64,000 nt of DNA from Natronorubrum aibiense (GTDB lineage Archaea; Halobacteriota; Halobacteria; Halobacteriales; Natrialbaceae). The translations under genes were made by a program, and so were the position numbers. The stretch covers positions 3,286,001 to 3,350,000 of the forward strand of contig NZ_CP045488.1 of the NCBI RefSeq assembly GCF_009392895.1. The letters run 5' to 3'. Numbering within the stretch: the first letter of the stretch is position 1; each line of letters opens with the position of its first letter. Below the pieces are notes generated by a model. The model saw nothing but the letters and a program-made list of their open reading frames with translations, was not told the DNA's origin and did no database searches. This document shows positions 4,765-42,594 of the stretch, one piece after another.

Positions 4765-5256
4765 ATGGACGAGCACACGCGAGATCCATCCGTCTCGCCA
4801 CCGCCGGGAACCAGCTCACCGACAGGCTGGCTCGAGGACGTCGACCGCTGGGAGCACGCGACGCTTCGGAAAGCGGTGGTTCACGGCGTCCGGCTCTACA
4901 ACGCCGGGGCGTTTCACGAATCCCACGACTGTTTCGAGGCGGAGTGGTACAACTACGGGCACGGGACCACCGAAAGCGCCTTCGCACACGGAATGGTGCA
5001 AGTCGCGGCTGGCGCGTACAAACGCATCGATTTCGGGAACGACGACGGCCTGCGGAGCCTCTTCGAGACGGCGCTCCAGTACCTCCACGGCGTTCCGCGA
5101 GATTATTACGGGGTCGATGTCCTCGAGGTCAGAACGACGCTGACGAACGCCATTGCGGAGCCGAGCCTGATCGACGATTGGCAGATCCCCCTCGACGGTG
5201 AGCGACCGACAGCACGTTCGGTCGATTTCGAGTACGCCGAGACGCTCGAGGACTGA
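4765..5256 (+). CDS. DUF309 domain-containing protein
   Basis: 163 aa from ATG at 4765. The central part ([20 protein letters not shown], then [20 protein letters not shown]) matches the DUF309 helical family, whose conserved feature is the HExHDxxE-like stretch in a two- to four-helix bundle, possibly binding metal. The family is found in cyanobacteria, bacilli and haloarchaea; no activity is established. The frame extends upstream to 4669, but the extra 32 residues are basic and unlike a haloarchaeal protein, so the inner ATG is preferred. Confidence 0.82.
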
Positions 5257-5397
5257 TAGATCGGGCTCAGTCGAGACGCCACCGGTTGACTCGGTGGCCG
5301 ACAGAACCGTGGTAGTGGGTAACAGACACACGGGTCCGACTGTCGCCGTTCGTGAGAGACCGAATCGCCTTTGGGCGCAGAGCCCAACTAGTAGATA

Positions 5398-6195
5398 ATG
5401 AGAGTTGCACAGCTCGGGTCGGGAACGCCGGAACTCGCCGTCGTTGCAGGGATTCATGGCGATGAACCCTGTGGCGTCCGGGCCGTCGAGCGACTGCTCG
5501 ACGAACGCCCGACCGTCGAACGGCCCGTCAAGCTCGTCGTCGCCAACGAGGCGGCCCTCGAGCGCCGCGTGCGGTTCGTCGACGAGGATCTGAATCGGAC
5601 GTTCCCCGGCCATCCGGAGGCAGCGACCCACGAAGGACAGCTTGCACATCGACTCGTCGAAGAACTCGAGGGCTGTCTCACTTTCTCAATGCACTCGACG
5701 CAGAGTCACGCCGATCCGTTCGCGATCGTCAACGGAATCAGCGACACCGCACGAGAGTTGGTGCCACAGCTGCCGGTGGCGGCGATGGTCGAGACGAGCA
5801 ACTTCGCGGAGGGGCGGCTCTTCTCGAAGATCGACACGATCGAAGTCGAGTGCGGGCTGCAAGGATCGGAGACGGCCGCCCAGAACGCGGATCGGCTCAC
5901 ACGGGCGTTCCTGACGGCCGTCGGCGCGTTGCCCGGCGATACCGTGGCCCGCGATCTGCCGGTTTACCAGCTCACCGACGTCATCAGCAAAGCACAGGCC
6001 GACACCTACGAGGTCTTCGTCGATAACTTCACTCGAGTCGACCCCGGTGACCCGTTTGCCGCCGCCGACGGCGACATGCAGGTCGCAGACGAGCCGTTTT
6101 ATCCCGTGCTCATGTCGCCCAACGGCTACCGCAACGTCTTCGGCTACGCCGCTGACAAACTCGACGTCTTGACGACGACGCCGGCCGCGGACTAA
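5398..6195 (+). CDS. Succinylglutamate desuccinylase/aspartoacylase family hydrolase
   Basis: 265 aa. The zinc site of the M14-like AstE/ASPA family is visible: His20 and Glu23 in GIHGDEP, DLNRTFPG at 64-71 with the substrate-binding Asn-Arg, and His99 in FSMHSTQSH. Such enzymes remove acyl groups from N-acyl amino acids. The substrate is not deducible from sequence or neighbours. Transcribed alone, with the start ATG directly after a short non-coding stretch. Confidence 0.84.
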   Translation: MRVAQLGSGTPELAVVAGIHGDEPCGVRAVERLLDERPTVERPVKLVVANEAALERRVRFVDEDLNRTFPGHPEAATHEGQLAHRLVEELEGCLTFSMHSTQSHADPFAIVNGISDTARELVPQLPVAAMVETSNFAEGRLFSKIDTIEVECGLQGSETAAQNADRLTRAFLTAVGALPGDTVARDLPVYQLTDVISKAQADTYEVFVDNFTRVDPGDPFAAADGDMQVADEPFYPVLMSPNGYRNVFGYAADKLDVLTTTPAAD

Positions 6196-35622: not shown

Positions 35623-35949
35623 TCACGAACTGTCGGGTTCGTCTCGAGTCTCACGTGACTGCTCGAGGGCGACCTGTTCGTGGTCGCGTTTGGTCCGATC
35701 GTCGTCCCTCCGCCGATCGCGCTGATGCTGGCGTCGGGTGACCGCCGACCGCCGGCGTTCGACATCCCATTCTTCGAAAAGGCCGTACTCGTTCATCGTT
35801 TCCATGCCCGCGATGGCCGCCGTGAGCTTGATTCCGACCAGCGGAATCTCCGCGACCGAGACGATCACGTCCGCACGGAGGATCGCCCCGTCTCTGAGCA
35901 GGACGTCGAGGACGTCGACGAGCGCCTCGTCGTCTTTTCTCGGTCTCAT
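35623..35949 (-). CDS. gvpM: Gas vesicle protein GvpM
   Basis: 108 aa. A GvpA-related domain at about 8-58 (LVDVLDVLLRDGAILRADVIVSVAEIPLVGIKLTAAIAGMETM) with a polar, Arg/Glu-rich tail. GvpM is a minor component required for vesicle nucleation. It overlaps gvpL (GvpL stop 35946) by 4 nt and ends the minus-strand operon. Distinguished from GvpJ by its position and shorter tail. Confidence 0.9.
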   Translation of the reverse strand: MRPRKDDEALVDVLDVLLRDGAILRADVIVSVAEIPLVGIKLTAAIAGMETMNEYGLFEEWDVERRRSAVTRRQHQRDRRRDDDRTKRDHEQVALEQSRETRDEPDSS

Positions 35950-36854
35950 TGCTGGTTGGGATCCAAATCCGCTGGCTCGTCGTCGCCGCCCAGTTCCGGC
36001 GCGAACGTGTAGGGTGGCCACGGGCCGGTAAACCTGATCTCGAGGCCGTCGGTCGCTGCGACATCGTCGAGAATCGAGCCGATCGCCGTCTCGTCGTCTT
36101 CGTGGGCGAGTATAGTGAGCCGACAGAGCGTTTCGCCGTCGCGTCCGTCGCCGGCGGCCTCGGTCACGTCGTCTGCCAGCGACGCCGTCGGCGAGCGCTC
36201 GAGGGTGTGGACCTCCCGCGCCTGCTCGTCGAGTCGCGTCTTGAGGTCGGTCGTCATCGACTCGCGACGGCCCGCCCGAAGCTCCGTGAGCCGCTTGTCG
36301 AACTGCTTCTCGAGCAGGTACGCCGTCCCCTCGCCCGCGTCGTCGATCTTCGACTCGAGGGCCTGCAGTTGCTCGTCGCGGTCGACCAGTTCGGCGTCGC
36401 TGATCGGGTCGATCTCGACGACTTCGACCCGATACTCCCAGTGGTTCGCAAGCCCCGATAGTGCTCGCTCGAGGGTGTCCGCCTCCTCGCGAAGCCACTC
36501 GCGCACGCCCTCGTCGTCTCCGCGGAGGATCGTGTCGAACTGGAACGGGATCGGGGTGCCGAAGGCCTCGCCGGCCTCGTCGACGACCGTCTGGTGGCGA
36601 ACGAGCCAGCGTCGAACCTGCGTGAGATCAGCCGAGTCGTAGATGCCATCGCAGGCGTGGACGACCGCGCCGATGCCGTCCTCGACGACGACTGAGACCG
36701 GTTCGCCGTCGACGCCGGTCGTCTCGAGCGAGTCGCCCGCGTCGGCCCGAACGAGACAGTAGAGGTACCGACCGTCGTCGATCTCGGGGACCCCGTCGCC
36801 AGCCGTCTCGGCATCGTCGACGCCCTCGAGGCGGTCCGCTCGATCGGAGCTCAC
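35946..36854 (-). CDS. gvpL: Gas vesicle protein GvpL (GvpF/L family)
   Basis: 302 aa; start GTG at 36854 overlapping the gvpK stop. N-terminal GvpL/F domain ([13 protein letters not shown]), a coiled-coil region at about 140-200 ([18 protein letters not shown]...) and C-terminal [14 protein letters not shown], the PxPPYxF signature. GvpL binds many other accessory Gvps and initiates assembly. An acidic 25-residue N-terminal extension precedes the domain. Confidence 0.92.
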
Positions 36855-37195
36855 TGCTCGTCACCTCCGAACACGGAGTAGCCGGGTGCGGGCGCGATCT
36901 CGGGCTCGCCGTGGAGCTGTTCGATCACGTCGTTGACCAGCCCATTCAGGTCGTCGCGGAGGTCGTCGACGCTGTCTTCGATCTCCTCGTCGCGTTTGAG
37001 CTGTTCGATCTCGGCTTCGATCGTCGCGAGCTGGCGGCCGAGTCGCTCGATTTCCTCGTCCGAGAGATCACCCGACTCCATGCGGCGGACGGCTTCGCGC
37101 TCCAAGGCATCGATCAGGATCTCGATGACAGTGACGACGAGGCTCACCAGTCCTTGCCGTGCGTCCTCACCGTCGCCGACGTCGATCTGGGTCAT
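36851..37195 (-). CDS. gvpK: Gas vesicle protein GvpK
   Basis: 114 aa with the helical GvpK core ([40 protein letters not shown]) and a following coiled coil ending at [17 protein letters not shown]. GvpK is an essential minor assembly protein. Overlaps gvpJ (stop 37192) and gvpL by 4 nt each, so translation is coupled. Confidence 0.92.
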
Positions 37196-37767
37196 TCGTT
37201 CTCACCCGACGTCTCCGTCGGTTCCTCGTCGTCAGTTTCCGTGTCGTCGCCACCGTCGCTCGAGTCAGCCTCCCCGTCACCGTCAGAATCGTCGCTGAGC
37301 AGATCGAACCCGCCGCTCGTCGGCTGGTCCGGGTCCGGCCGCGCGCCGATACGTTCGGTTCCCCGGCCGGCGTGGTCGTCCTCGGTGTCGAGCACGCCGT
37401 CGCCGGAATCGTCCTCGTCAGCACTCGAGTCGTCCGCCCGCGTCTCGTCCGCGTATCGTTCGTCGGGCGTTACGTTGACACCGCGCGTCGGATCGATCGG
37501 CGGTTTGGGCCGCTCCATCTCGGCGAGTTCGGGGTCGTCGACCGCGGCAGCGACGCGGCGCATGTCGGTCCCCTCGGGGAACTCGAGGCCGTACTTCGCC
37601 GCCGTCTCGAAGGAGGCGATGGCGGCCCGGACCTGCACGCCGAGCAACTGCGTGTCGCCGATCGAGACGGCGATGTCCGCGTTGATGACGATACCCTTGT
37701 CCAGGAGCATCTCGACGACCTCGGCGAGGTCGGTCTTCTGGCGACTCGGCTGGAAGTCATCGACCAT
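37192..37767 (-). CDS. gvpJ: Gas vesicle protein GvpJ with long acidic tail
   Basis: 191 aa from ATG at 37767. GvpA-like core at about 8-60 ([48 protein letters not shown]). The remaining 100 residues are Asp/Ser/Glu-rich and probably disordered, making the protein much longer than the roughly 110-aa GvpJ of Halobacterium. A Shine-Dalgarno GGAGGTG six nt before the ATG decides this start over a GTG at 37776. It follows the 303-aa gene after an 89-nt gap. Confidence 0.9.
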
Positions 37768-37856
37768 GCTGCTCACCTCCGGGTCGAGTCGTCGGGGCCG
37801 GCCGTTCGAAGGCGGTACTCGGCAGCTCGCGTCGTCTCCGGATCAGTGTGGGTGGG

Positions 37857-38768
37857 TCAGTCATGTTCGGACCTCCGTCTTTCTCGTTCGAGTTCGAATC
37901 GGCGGCCGTAGATCCGTTTTCGGCTTGGTGCCGTCGAGAGTTTGACCTCCTGTGGGACGGTCGAGTAGCGAGCGCCGCTCCCGAGGTCGCGGCGGTCGGT
38001 CGGGATCGTTGACGCCGCCGTTGGGTTCCGCGAGTTCGTGCTGGTGTCCTGCCGACGCATCTTCTCGCGGTTTTGTTCGTAGAGTCGTTCGAACTTTTCG
38101 TGGGTCTCGAGCAGCGCCCATCGGAAGGCGTCGATTCCCTTCATCGCCTGCTGCTGGATGGCGACCTGGTACGCTTCCGGGTCGTCCTCGACGTCGATAT
38201 CGCCGAGGGCCTCCTTCGCCGCGGTCATCGAATCCATGTCCGTCTCGATGAGATCGTCGTCGTCATCGCCGAGGAGTTGCCCGCCATCGTCGTCGGCGAC
38301 GTCCGACACCGCGTCTTCGACCACGCCGGCGTCGTCGCCGTCCTCGAGGTCGTCGATCGCGTCGTCCAGTTCGCGTTTCTCCTGCCAGATGTCGGTCAGA
38401 TCCGTGGCTTGCCAGGCGTTCAGCAGGTTGATCGCGTCGACCAGCTCCGTGACGTCGACGAGTTCGCTGACGCCGTCGTCCTCGTTCGCTAGCACGTCCG
38501 GGATCTCGCCGAGCTCGATCGCATCGAGGAGTTCGTCTCCGTCGACCGCCGCCGGCAACTCGCGCAGATCCATCGCCTCGAGTAGTTCACCGACTTCGAT
38601 TGCCACCTGCGCGAGGGTGTCGACGTCGCCGATCGCCGTCTCGACGGTTTCGTCGTCGAGTGCGTCGAGCGTCTCCGCGTCGCCGAGCGTCGATTCGAGC
38701 CGCTGGAGGCTCTCCGTGGCGTCCTCGAGCAGTGTTTCGAAACCCTCGTCTGTGTCGTCGAGACTCAT
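37857..38768 (-). CDS. Unrecognised gas vesicle locus protein, 303 aa, in the gvpI position
   Basis: Sits between gvpH and gvpJ, where gvpI is normally found, and overlaps the gvpH stop by 4 nt with its own GGAGGT site. Residues 1-205 are very acidic and helical, with three related motifs: GELLEAMDLRELPAA (60-74), DELLDAIELGEIPDV (78-92) and TELVDAINLLNA (107-118). Residues 196-240 look like an amphipathic helix (AYQVAIQQQAMKGIDAF, then Glu/Arg-rich). The last 63 residues are basic. GvpI of other species is a small basic protein, so the tail may correspond to it, but I cannot show homology. No function assigned. Confidence 0.85.
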   Translation of the reverse strand: MSLDDTDEGFETLLEDATESLQRLESTLGDAETLDALDDETVETAIGDVDTLAQVAIEVGELLEAMDLRELPAAVDGDELLDAIELGEIPDVLANEDDGVSELVDVTELVDAINLLNAWQATDLTDIWQEKRELDDAIDDLEDGDDAGVVEDAVSDVADDDGGQLLGDDDDDLIETDMDSMTAAKEALGDIDVEDDPEAYQVAIQQQAMKGIDAFRWALLETHEKFERLYEQNREKMRRQDTSTNSRNPTAASTIPTDRRDLGSGARYSTVPQEVKLSTAPSRKRIYGRRFELERERRRSEHD

Positions 38769-39334
38769 TCGTCGACCTCCTGCTCGTCGATCCCGGCCTC
38801 CGTCGGTTCCGGCCTGATCCGGACGGTGAGCACGCCGTTCGTGATCACCGCGTCGGCCGTCCGGTCGCGCCAGGGAACCTCGAAACGGCCGAGTTCGCGA
38901 TCGGAGACGGCAACGACGAGCGTGTCGTCGTCACCGAAGCCGACGGTGACGTCGTCCGGATCGGCACCAGCCACGTCGGCGATCACGAGCAGTTCGTCCT
39001 CGAACTCCCGCGTCGTCAGGTGGTGGTCGCTCGAGGGTGTCGAGCCGGCCGTGGCCGATCGGCTGCGTCGCGTTCGTGGCCGATCCCGACCGCCTCGCTC
39101 CTGTCCTCGATCGTCCCCCGCACTGGGGGTCCGGTCTCGTCCAAACCGCGGCCCATCGTCGGTCGAGATCCCAGTCCGAATCGACACGTCGTAATCGAAT
39201 CGCGTTCGGTCGCTGCGCCGGCCCGACGACGAGTCCTCGAGCCACTGCAACGCCGTGAACAGATTCGACAGCCAGTGGTGCTCGTCGGCCGATTCGTCCG
39301 AATCGTCGTCCCGTTCGGTGTCGTCTCGTGGCAT
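38765..39334 (-). CDS. gvpH: Gas vesicle protein GvpH (Hsp20-like)
   Basis: 189 aa from ATG at 39334, which has a GGAGGT site and overlaps the gvpG stop by one nt. N-terminal helix HHWLSNLFTALQWLE, a disordered Arg/Ser/Asp-rich middle, then an alpha-crystallin-like domain with LLVIADVAGADPDDVTVGFGDDDTLVVAV and GVLTVRIRP. GvpH acts as a chaperone-like accessory protein. The antisense and upstream-extended frames are shadows. Confidence 0.87.
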   Translation of the reverse strand: MPRDDTERDDDSDESADEHHWLSNLFTALQWLEDSSSGRRSDRTRFDYDVSIRTGISTDDGPRFGRDRTPSAGDDRGQERGGRDRPRTRRSRSATAGSTPSSDHHLTTREFEDELLVIADVAGADPDDVTVGFGDDDTLVVAVSDRELGRFEVPWRDRTADAVITNGVLTVRIRPEPTEAGIDEQEVDE

Positions 39335-39588
39335 TACGATTTTACCTCCACGCGGCCGCTCGTGAGCCGTTCGTGGACGTCGCGGGCGATCTCGAGTTCC
39401 TCCTCGAGTTCGGCTTTCCGTTCCTGATACTCCGTCTCGGAGCGTTCCCCGAGTTCGTACAGCAGCTGGTTTTCCTTGAGCTCGTCCTCGAGCGCGTCGA
39501 CGTCGTAGATCTCGCTGAGCGCCATCGTGTGCAGCGTGTCCACGATGCCGACGAACGGCCGGAACAGGAGGTCGTCGAGGATGAACAT
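39334..39588 (-). CDS. gvpG: Gas vesicle protein GvpG
   Basis: 84 aa, starting MFILDDLLFRPFVGIVDTLHTMAL, then a long charged helix (ELKENQLLYELGERSETEYQ, then Glu/Lys-rich). Length and N-terminal motif are typical of GvpG, a minor assembly factor that binds GvpF and GvpL. It follows gvpF by 2 nt. Confidence 0.92.
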   Translation of the reverse strand: MFILDDLLFRPFVGIVDTLHTMALSEIYDVDALEDELKENQLLYELGERSETEYQERKAELEEELEIARDVHERLTSGRVEVKS

Positions 39589-39590
39589 GG

Positions 39591-40214
39591 TTAGCGTTGC
39601 GCGCCGATCGTGACGTCGACGAAACTGTACGGTGCGAACGGCCCCGTATACCGAACGATGAGGTCGTCGTACTCGTCCTCGAGTCGGGCGATCGCCTCGT
39701 CGAAGCGCTCGCGGTCGTCGCGCTCGACGAGATAGGATCGATTGAGCACGAGGCGATCGCTGAACAGGTCGTTCGGGACCGACTGGGCGGCGATCGGCTC
39801 GAGTTCGTCAGCAACGGCGTCCTCGATTGCCTCGCTGTCGACGTCGGCACCCTCTTCGCGGACGATCTTGACACCGAGTTCGATCCGTCCCTCGATATCG
39901 TTCAACGCACGCCGGAACGCCGGTCTGGCGCCGCGAAGGACGTTTTTCAACTCGCGATCGCTCTCGAAGGCCATTCCGAACTGCATCGGAACGATCGTCC
40001 GGCCACCGTCACGGTCCATGACTTCGCGGAGGACCTCGTCGTGGCGTGTGGCATCCTCGTCGGTCTCCTCGGGATCGGTGGTATCGATGTTGGAGACGAC
40101 AGCGCTGAGACGACGGTGTGAAACGGTGTAGACGTGGTCTTCGCCAGCGACGGCGTCCGTCTCGAACTCGACCGGGTCGTCAGCCATGATGCCGTAGACG
40201 TATCGGTTCGTCAT
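39591..40214 (-). CDS. gvpF: Gas vesicle protein GvpF
   Basis: 207 aa from ATG at 40214 (another ATG at 40232). N-terminal YVYGIMADDP, central TIVPMQFGMAFESDRELKNVL and C-terminal GPFAPYSFVDVTI are the GvpF/L signatures. GvpF binds GvpA and is needed early in assembly. First gene of the leftward operon, 369 bp from the divergent gvpA; gvpD and gvpE, which precede gvpF in Halobacterium, are absent here. Confidence 0.92.
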   Translation of the reverse strand: MTNRYVYGIMADDPVEFETDAVAGEDHVYTVSHRRLSAVVSNIDTTDPEETDEDATRHDEVLREVMDRDGGRTIVPMQFGMAFESDRELKNVLRGARPAFRRALNDIEGRIELGVKIVREEGADVDSEAIEDAVADELEPIAAQSVPNDLFSDRLVLNRSYLVERDDRERFDEAIARLEDEYDDLIVRYTGPFAPYSFVDVTIGAQR

Positions 40215-40582
40215 CGGCCGACCACCCCGCATCTATTCGTCCGTCTACGGAGAGACGACCACGACGCTACTCGTGCCCGCTGGTGCGGGCTCGGTTCAGG
40301 TTCGTCCGCGACGGCCGGTGAGATCGATCGAACGGATATCATGGGAGCTGTCTCAGTTTCTCGAGGGGTGATCCAGACAGAGACTGACTCGATGGCATCA
40401 CCCGCGGGTACTCGAGGGTCCTTATCACGAACGGTATTCCATCCCGACGGGTTATCGTGGTGCTTGCAGTCGCAGCCTCCGGTGACCCCGCATCTCGAGT
40501 TGGCTGCGCAACGGGTTCTGCCGGGTCGGCTTGCAGACGCAGTGCAAGCCGTGTTACGAGTCCCGGATGAACCCCAGACCGT
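40215..40582. other. 368-bp divergent promoter region between gvpF and gvpA
   Basis: Contains a near-identical repeat GCTTGCAG(T/A)CGCAG at 40462-40475 and 40529-40542 and an inverted repeat at 40528-40550, directly before a weak TATA-like gttacga (40553-40559) of gvpA. The gvpF side has only a weak AT stretch near 40235. No reading frame is supported. Confidence 0.6.
40528..40550. promoter_or_regulatory. Inverted repeat before gvpA, candidate activator or repressor site
   Basis: GGCTTGCA-N7-TGCAAGCC, perfect 8-bp arms, ending about 2 nt before the TATA-like element and about 32 nt before the gvpA ATG. A partial copy of its left arm plus spacer lies 67 bp upstream. In Halobacterium the GvpE activator binds just upstream of the BRE, but the sequence differs and gvpE is absent. 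Confidence 0.5.
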
Positions 40583-40867
40583 ATGGCCCAACCACAACGA
40601 AGACCCGACTCCTCGAGTCTCGCGGAGGTACTGGACCGCATCCTCGACAAGGGCGTCGTCATCGACGTCTGGGCTCGCGTCTCGGTCGTCGGGATCGAGT
40701 TGCTGACCATCGAGGCCCGCGTCGTCGTCGCCTCCGTCGACACCTTCCTGCACTACGCGGAGGAGATCGCAAAAATTGAGCAAGCCACCGCAGAGGGCGA
40801 CCTCGAAGAGCTCGAGGAACTCGAGGTCGAACCACGTCCGGAATCGTCGCCACAGTCCGCCGAATAG
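40583..40867 (+). CDS. gvpA: Major gas vesicle shell protein GvpA
   Basis: 94 aa. The conserved ribbed-shell core is intact: [49 protein letters not shown]. It builds the gas-filled wall. Two differences from the usual 76-80-aa protein: a QRR insert near the N-terminus ([12 protein letters not shown]) and a Glu/Pro-rich C-terminal tail of about 25 residues. gvpN follows with no gap; gvpC is absent. Confidence 0.96.
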
Positions 40868-41905
40868 ATGGGCGACGATTCTTCGCGCAAGCGAAAGGTC
40901 AGGGGACGAAAGATCAGACGCGACCGCTCGACGAAAGAAGGACGGCGAGCCAAGAAAGAACTCGCCCGAAAAGCGTCGAAGGCGGCCTCGAAAAACGGCG
41001 ACAGCCCGCTCTCGGATCCGGCAGCCGTCGCTCCCGAGCCGTTCGTCGAGACGGACGCTGTCACCGCGCTTCGCGATCGGATCACGGGCTGGCTCGAGGC
41101 GGATCAGCCGGTCCACCTGATCGGCCCGACGGGCTGTGGGAAGACGGCGCTTGCGCTGTCGGCCGCCGTAACGCGCGGTCGCCCCGTCGTCTGGCTCAAC
41201 GGTGACGAGGCCGTCGACACGGCCGCGCTCGTCGGCGACCACGCCGGCGGCGAACGGTACAAAGAAGACGACCGGTTTGTCAGCGGCGTGAGCAAACAGA
41301 CGGAAATCGTCCGCGAACGCTGGGTCGACAACCCACTCTCGGTGGCCGTCCGGGAGGGGGCGACGCTCGTCTACAACGAGTTCTCGCGGAGCGATCCAGC
41401 GGCTCACAACGTCCTGCTCTCGGTCTTCGAGGAAGGCGTACTCGAGCGACCGGGCAAGCGCGGCGAAGACCGCACGATCGACGTCCACCCCGAGTTCCGA
41501 GCAATCTTGACCTCGAACGACGTCGAGTACGCGGGCGTCCACGAGCAACAGGATGCGCTCCTCGATCGGTTCGTCGGCGTTCACGTTGACTACTACGACG
41601 CGGAAACCGAGCGCGAAATCGTCCGCGCCCACGTCGACCTCGAGGACGAGGCCGTCGAGACGATCGTCAACACGATGCGAACGCTTCGGGACGACCTCGA
41701 CCTCGTCGTCGGCACACGGGCGGCGATCACGGCCGCGAAGGGGCTCGCGGTCTTCGACGCCAAACGCAACGGCAAGAGCGAGACCGGCGAGTTCGACGAC
41801 GAACTGTTGACGGACGTCTTTATGGACGTCCTCGTTCCGAAGATTGCCGGCGACGGTCCGGACGACGTCTCGACGCTCCGGTCACGGATCGCCGAGTCGG
41901 TGTAA
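40868..41905 (+). CDS. gvpN: Gas vesicle protein GvpN, AAA+ ATPase
   Basis: 345 aa. MoxR-like AAA+ domain with Walker A GPTGCGKTALALS at about 84, Walker B-like ATLVYNEFSRSD and sensor ILTSNDVEYAG. GvpN helps enlarge vesicles. The first 40 residues are strongly basic (RKRKVRGRKIRRDRST... KASKAASKNG), an extension that looks disordered and nucleic-acid-like. Its ATG directly follows the gvpA stop. Confidence 0.93.
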   Translation: MGDDSSRKRKVRGRKIRRDRSTKEGRRAKKELARKASKAASKNGDSPLSDPAAVAPEPFVETDAVTALRDRITGWLEADQPVHLIGPTGCGKTALALSAAVTRGRPVVWLNGDEAVDTAALVGDHAGGERYKEDDRFVSGVSKQTEIVRERWVDNPLSVAVREGATLVYNEFSRSDPAAHNVLLSVFEEGVLERPGKRGEDRTIDVHPEFRAILTSNDVEYAGVHEQQDALLDRFVGVHVDYYDAETEREIVRAHVDLEDEAVETIVNTMRTLRDDLDLVVGTRAAITAAKGLAVFDAKRNGKSETGEFDDELLTDVFMDVLVPKIAGDGPDDVSTLRSRIAESV

Positions 41906-41926
41906 CTCGGCGGTCAGTCGGGACGG

Positions 41927-41953
41927 GTCACGGTCTCGCCACGTGACCGTGAC
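41927..41953. repeat. Inverted repeat in the gvpN-gvpO spacer
   Basis: GTCACGGT (41927-41934) pairs with ACCGTGAC (41946-41953) around an 11-nt loop, in the only sizeable gap (131 bp) of the rightward operon. It could be a processing or attenuation hairpin; no T run follows. Confidence 0.4.
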
Positions 41954-42036
41954 GTCCCCTGCCGGGCGAATCGACACCCGCACGAATCAGATACCACGTT
42001 CACACGCGAAACCGACAACCAGTTCAGTACGACGCA

Positions 42037-42594
42037 ATGGCCGACGCCGATACACAATCGACGACGCAGTGTAAAGCGCTCACCGACGACGGCGAGCGCT
42101 GTTCGCGGCCAGCCCAGGACGACGGGTTCTGTTACCAACACGACGAGAGTGATCCAACCGTGAGTGATAGTCAGACGCAACCAGCCGACGACGAGCAGGA
42201 GCAACGCACGCAGGACGCCGACGAGACGGCAGAAAGCGAGCCCAAGAGTCGGGACCTCGGCGTCGACATGACCGCCGAGGAGAAGACCGACCCCGAATCG
42301 GTCGACGCCGACGTCGAGACCGACCACGACGAAATTGCCGGCGTTCTCGCCGTCCGCCGGACGGTCAAATCGACGGCAGGCGAACTCATCGGCCGGGAGT
42401 TCGACGCCGTCAGCGAGATCGCGCCGACTGATGACGGCTGGCGTGCAGTCGTCGAAGTCGTCGAACGCCGAGCCGTCCCCGACACGCAGGATATCATCGG
42501 CCGCTACGAGATCGAACTCGACGACGGCGCGACCGTCCACGGCTATCGGCGACTGGATCGCTACCGCCGCGGCGACACGGGCGCATTCGAGTAA
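42037..42594 (+). CDS. gvpO: Gas vesicle protein GvpO with N-terminal zinc-finger-like module
   Basis: 185 aa. Residues about 100-180 are GvpO (LAVRRTVKSTAGELIGREFDAVSEI, VVERRAVPDTQDIIGRYEIELDD, GYRRLDRYRRG), a gas vesicle factor. Residues 12-35 hold C12, C22, C32 and H35 (CKALTDDGERCSRPA...GFCYQH), the CxnCxnCxxH pattern of a small zinc-binding module also seen in phage and haloarchaeal proteins. An acidic linker joins them. The start ATG at 42037 gives the complete module. Last gene of the rightward operon. Confidence 0.9.
   Translation: MADADTQSTTQCKALTDDGERCSRPAQDDGFCYQHDESDPTVSDSQTQPADDEQEQRTQDADETAESEPKSRDLGVDMTAEEKTDPESVDADVETDHDEIAGVLAVRRTVKSTAGELIGREFDAVSEIAPTDDGWRAVVEVVERRAVPDTQDIIGRYEIELDDGATVHGYRRLDRYRRGDTGAFE

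Follow-up and report, generated by a model that had tools for sequence, protein, structure and literature searches.

GvpI of Halobacterium salinarum, studied in its short form only, forms a heterodimer with GvpH and binds GvpL and GvpF (PMC7688916), and in split-GFP experiments it also binds GvpC (relative fluorescence, rf, 10–20; PMC9501494). Deletion of gvpI from the Halobacterium p-vac cluster, in a Haloferax volcanii host, leads to extremely long vesicles (PMC7688916). N-terminally extended GvpI proteins were noted in 2012 for Natrialba magadii (Nmag_0338) and Haloterrigena turkmenica (Htur_2370), the N. magadii cluster being one that lacks gvpC, gvpD, and gvpE (PMC3403918). Here we analyze a 64,000-nucleotide (nt) stretch of the Natronorubrum aibiense genome (contig NZ_CP045488.1, positions 3,286,001–3,350,000; hereafter the window), which carries a gas vesicle (gvp) locus with a 303-residue open reading frame (ORF) between gvpH and gvpJ. 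By description, Nmag_0338 and Htur_2370 are the same type of protein as the product of this ORF, neither sequence being matched by name to the loci that we read. The 2012 paper neither described a repeat nor charted the extended form more widely, and it did not connect the extension with the missing gvpC (PMC3403918); our literature search found no other paper that takes up the extended protein. The long type of GvpI is therefore already known; what is new is a nonapeptide repeat within it, its distribution, and the mutual exclusion of its N-terminal arm and gvpC.

The Window Protein Is Homologous to GvpI at Its C Terminus

In pairwise blastp comparisons the window protein is 36% identical to the 113-residue c-vac GvpI of H. 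salinarum over 90 residues (E = 3e-11) and 32% identical to the 144-residue p-vac GvpI over 104 residues (E = 6e-9). The homology is located at residues ∼199–292 of the window protein and covers nearly all of the Halobacterium proteins. Moreover, alignment of a profile of 15 short GvpI proteins with one of ∼60 long GvpI proteins yielded an hhalign probability of 99.3 (E = 4.6e-20, 91 columns), and both forms share a signature consisting of a helix followed by the motifs NPxAxSTxP, STVP, and (R/I)YGxR. This domain comprises a short helix and a basic tail that is rich in S/T-x-P and has YGxRF at its end. The GvpI domain is also the most constrained part of the window protein, with a ratio of nonsynonymous to synonymous substitution rates (dN/dS) of 0.07–0.15, and its tail retains 55% mean pairwise identity across families. 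The gene occupies the gvpI slot, overlapping gvpH by 4 nt and leaving an 80-nt gap to gvpJ, and the same slot and 4-nt overlap are found in Halobacterium and in Natronorubrum bangense. That the gene lies inside the gvp operon with this overlap, as an earlier note made from the sequence alone had described, is borne out by the ORF itself, by the coding signal (GC contents of 73/37/81% at codon positions 1/2/3), by a whole-gene dN/dS of 0.20–0.33 against six orthologues, and by conservation: close orthologues with 85–88% identity are present in N. bangense and Natronorubrum sulfidifaciens, and 110 of 125 host-family genomes have the gene. Collectively, these data argue strongly that the gene is very probably orthologous to haloarchaeal gvpI and represents a long form of it, composed of a C-terminal GvpI domain and an acidic repeat arm.

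The earlier note had instead held that an unrecognized protein replaces gvpI, possibly a new minor vesicle protein. Consistent with such a view, the window protein has no significant match among the Pfam, NCBIfam, PHROGs, or PADLOC models, and its N. bangense orthologue is annotated "hypothetical protein." However, the Halobacterium GvpI proteins likewise match nothing in the curated family libraries, so the silence of these libraries on the window protein carries no weight; because Pfam and NCBIfam contain no model that matches GvpI, most members of the family are called hypothetical. The blastp and profile homology of the last ∼105 residues identifies the gene itself as gvpI and contradicts an unrelated newcomer in its slot, an explanation to which we give almost no credence. 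The match to GvpI, which the note had named as decisive if it were full length, is indeed present but is restricted to the C-terminal third. A second suggestion of the note, GvpI with a large N-terminal addition, was right about the identity of the protein; whether "addition" is the right word is uncertain, as the long form predominates. Nor does the window protein share the small size (∼11–16 kDa) and strong basicity (isoelectric point [pI] ∼10.8) of characterized GvpI. These are traits of the characterized short form and not of the orthologous group, which is mostly long and acidic, and so they do not exclude membership in GvpI.

The Acidic Arm Contains a Nonapeptide Repeat

Residues 1–195 of the window protein form an arm that has no counterpart in short GvpI and bears a net charge of about −65. 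The acidic body and basic tail that had been noticed earlier are evident in the whole protein (pI 4.05, net charge −58) and in residues 241–303 (pI 10.7, net charge +5). The three 12- to 15-residue motifs reported along with them are also real, but they are only pieces of a longer nine-residue repeat spanning residues ∼57–130. The seven units, numbered by their first residue, are 57 IEVGELLEA, 66 MDLRELPAA, 75 VDGDELLDA, 84 IELGEIPDV, 104 VDVTELVDA, 113 INLLNAWQA, and 122 TDLTDIWQE. The consensus is V/I-D-L-x-E-L-P/W-E/D-A, and an 11-residue break interrupts the array. Self-similarity at a lag of nine residues is clear in the window protein (z = 4.1) and stronger over 59 homologues (mean z = 5.95), with a harmonic at lag 18. 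dN/dS is mostly 0.2–0.6 in the arm regions and 0.22–0.53 in the repeat core; these values indicate purifying selection on the repeat core and faster evolution of the arm than of the GvpI domain.

An AlphaFold2 model built from a seven-sequence input consists of helices with a mean predicted local distance difference test (pLDDT) score of 44.5, and at this value we claim no fold for the protein. A match to Protein Data Bank entry 9e5c (whole-sequence E = 1.6e-8) was rejected, as every single stretch gave E ≥ 0.33 and the entry matches only through its own tandem repetition.

Acidity is typical of haloarchaeal proteins, and the arm might be a mere appendage for salt adaptation, for solubility, or for neutralizing the charge of the basic tail by masking it, gained or lost neutrally and with no vesicle-specific role. 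The extreme acidity of the arm and its faster evolution relative to the GvpI domain would fit such an appendage. In contrast, the regular nonapeptide repeat is maintained across families and its core is selectively constrained, and we regard this explanation as doubtful.

Long GvpI Is the Prevalent Form in Halobacteria

Profile searches over 391 Halobacteria genomes identified gvpK in 161, and GvpI is present in 160 of these. Thus, absence of the gene from related vesicle operons, raised in the earlier note as a possible objection, is not what we observe. The only gvpK-positive genome without GvpI is G278. Its fragmentary cluster, on a 6.9-kb contig (L204, G278:C30), is a decayed one of the gvpC type: a shortened gvpC stands beside gvpK-L-M, and none of the genes from gvpF to gvpJ was detected.

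Short GvpI occurs in 15 genomes: 13 with the short form only (ORFs of 113–160 residues), G013, and G061, the last of which has two separate clusters, one encoding a long GvpI and the other a short one. Long GvpI is present in about 146 genomes, G061 included, these calls being based on ∼60 clusters read in detail and otherwise on match coverage. The two forms differ in charge. The median pI is 10.6 for short GvpI and about 4 for long GvpI, and the homologous helix has a median charge of +9 in the short form and −4 in the long form. Halobacterium GvpI shares with the window protein the operon slot and its C-terminal ∼100 residues with NPxAxSTxP, STVP, and YGxR, but it lacks the 195-residue arm, is strongly basic, and occurs only together with gvpC. 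Hence the protein on which haloarchaeal vesicle work is based, ultrasound and display tools included, represents a rare form found in 15 of the 160 GvpI-bearing genomes sampled.

The Arm and gvpC Are Mutually Exclusive

Among the gvpK-positive genomes, strong GvpC profile matches were obtained in exactly the 13 single-cluster short-form genomes and G278. A weaker match in G061 lies in its second cluster, the one with short GvpI, and the few remaining weak matches are outside gvp clusters wherever positions could be compared. G013 at first appeared to combine a short GvpI with the absence of GvpC; reading of the locus ruled this out, revealing a divergent gvpC between gvpA and gvpN that the whole-genome search had missed. 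Because this search is therefore not fully sensitive, we measured the gap between gvpA and gvpN or gvpO. In 58 of 58 long-form clusters the gap does not exceed 172 nt (median 22), too little to accommodate gvpC, whereas in 13 of 13 short-form clusters it is 938–1,709 nt and filled by gvpC. In the window, gvpN begins at the nucleotide following the end of gvpA (Table 1), again with no room for gvpC. The 13 short-form genomes do not encode the arm at any other locus. Arm and gvpC are thus strictly exclusive at the level of the cluster, without exception. The retention of the arm in so many genomes and its strict absence where gvpC is present also tell against a mere appendage. A 2022 review (PMC9501494, Table 1) credits gvpC to N. 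magadii, Halopiger, and similar species; papers of 2012 and 2015 disagree with this entry, and so does our survey.

Trees of GvpF, G, J, K, L, and A group the short-form clusters in a single clade (ultrafast bootstrap 100; support 0.999 when G013 is included), so the exclusion rests on a single evolutionary event. Whether the arm was gained or lost depends on the root, and the roots conflict when clusters of Spartinivicinus, Streptomyces, and Nostoc or the divergent Natrinema and Natronococcus mini-clusters serve as outgroups; short GvpI may be a truncation of the long form.

Haloarchaeal GvpC resembles the arm in being an acidic, repetitive vesicle protein, but its repeats are longer (32–40 residues; PMC9501494). 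Its gene lies between gvpA and gvpN, whereas gvpI of the window lies between gvpH and gvpJ. The possibility that the arm is a diverged GvpC was rejected, as comparison with the repeats and zinc finger of haloarchaeal GvpC showed no profile similarity (hhalign probability 2%). Instead of the zinc finger with which Halobacterium GvpC ends, two divergent Natrialbaceae GvpC proteins (L203:16055–17077 and L224:12184–13434) carry a C-terminal SAP-like segment (YAKLKKAANGIGYDGNLNAATKDELVEFI in L224).

Possible Roles of Long GvpI

By homology, the GvpI domain of the window protein would bind GvpH and dock on GvpL and GvpF in the accessory (nucleation) complex, and it would restrict or shape the elongation of vesicles, in the manner of H. 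salinarum GvpI. The most likely role of long GvpI would therefore be that of a regulator of assembly and vesicle length acting together with GvpH and GvpL. The arm would provide an acidic, mostly helical or flexible surface with a nonapeptide core, tethered in cis to the GvpI domain, and this could serve as a partner surface that gvpC-type clusters supply differently. One of the things that GvpC does in trans may be accomplished in cis by the arm.

A stronger version of this idea is that the arm stands in functionally for GvpC, with its repeat lying on the vesicle wall or holding assembly partners, such that GvpC plus GvpI would be combined in one chain in place of the two mutually binding proteins of gvpC-type clusters. 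The exclusion of arm and gvpC, which holds even inside G061 with both cluster types, points in this direction, as do the acidic and repetitive nature of both and the split-GFP interaction between Halobacterium GvpI and GvpC (PMC9501494). However, the arm has no sequence similarity to GvpC, only one evolutionary event underlies the exclusion, and the arm is retained in paralogues outside gvp clusters (see next section). Furthermore, GvpC coats the wall, whereas the products of gvpF to gvpM are minor components (PMC4390858). We consider a stand-in rather improbable. It is similarly a tentative and, in our view, unlikely proposition that haloarchaea have two vesicle designs, a common one in which long GvpI combines assembly control with part of the GvpC role in shape or strength, and another, that of the model species, in which an armless basic GvpI works with a GvpC that is provided in trans and binds it.

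Several points weigh against assigning long GvpI these roles. More than 60% of the window protein has no counterpart in characterized GvpI, which precludes a wholesale transfer of function. The two forms do not share their charge, either in the whole protein or in the homologous helix, and thus the published idea of a very basic GvpI that bridges acidic Gvp proteins needs revision for most GvpI. Given the monophyly of the short-form clusters, the exclusion could reflect one chance event; arm and GvpC show no profile similarity; and the AlphaFold model is poor. In addition, several species with gvpC-less clusters have been described as vesicle-negative (PMC4390858). The exclusion provides a handle on the role of the arm and on how vesicles could be shaped or strengthened without GvpC.

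GvpI Paralogues outside Gas Vesicle Clusters

The genome of the window encodes an orphan GvpI paralogue of 259 residues (L034:4346–5125, plus strand; about G000:C1:1799845–1800624) with no gvp genes within ∼4 kb. A further orphan GvpI-like paralogue is found on plasmid 1 of Halalkalicoccus jeotgali, and an orphan-type second match is present in at least 33 genomes of the host family. The orphans are homologous to long GvpI over the full length, arm included (hhalign E = 4.6e-66, 264 columns), but they have no gvp neighbors, a shorter acidic part, and a more basic tail. These full-length relatives indicate either that the GvpI family extends beyond gas vesicles or that its members were copied out of gvp clusters. 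A search for conserved neighbors of the orphans gave no functional hint, the shared ORFs resembling lineage synteny or shadow frames. Just upstream of the 259-residue paralogue is an ORF that, judged by eye, resembles a TnpB-type transposase.

A third, distant relative of 305 residues in the same genome (around C1:2212533–2213450) contains a repeat segment and two RxSTMxP-like motifs but no YGxR. It is paired with a 307-residue acidic protein that carries a glycine-zipper segment (L219:4034–4951 and 5003–5926, minus strand). A similar glycine zipper (11 of 28 residues identical) occurs in a Halocatena salina gene located between gvpH and gvpI (L057:4441–4857).

The gvp Locus of the Window and Related Clusters

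The locus consists of gvpF-G-H-I-J-K-L-M on the minus strand, running from 40232 to 35623, and gvpA-N-O on the plus strand, from 40583 to 42594 (Table 1).

Table 1. Genes of the window gvp locus and segments of its long GvpI
Feature	Position	Strand	Basis
gvpM	35623..35949	−	Third GvpA-family match of the genome; homology to gvpM of Halobacterium and related clusters
gvpL	35946..36854	−	NF045778
gvpK	36851..37195	−	PF05121
gvpJ	37192..37776	−	NF046090
gvpI, long form, 303 residues	37857..38768	−	ORF 38768→37857, ATG start
GvpI domain, residues 196–303 (helix, then NPTAASTIP, STVP, STAP, RIYGRRF tail)	37857..38183	−	hhalign, dN/dS
Acidic N-terminal arm, residues 1–195, no counterpart in short GvpI	38184..38768	−	Alignment, charge
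Seven nonapeptide units, residues 57–130	38379..38600	−	Self-similarity
gvpH (divergent, C-terminal half weakly Hsp20-like)	38765..39334	−	Homology
gvpG	39334..39588	−	PF05120, NF045779
gvpF	39591..40232	−	PF06386
gvpA	40583..40867	+	NF046092
gvpN	40868..41905	+	TIGR02640
gvpO, halophile type	42037..42594	+	PF05800, NF045806

Similar-looking gvp clusters are present on both the chromosome and a plasmid of N. bangense (L196, L197). In Halocatena marina and in G376, long gvpI is located outside the gvpF–gvpM operon, beyond gvpO (L059:7569–8678 and L205:4964–5701). Plasmids of Natrinema zhouii and Natronococcus occultus carry compact mini-clusters composed of a gvpJ-like gene, one unknown gene, gvpK, gvpL, and a gvpJ/M-like gene (L206:8983–11543 and L207:8968–11535). 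No gvpF, G, H, I, A, N, or O is found near these mini-clusters, which are flanked by TetR-type regulators.
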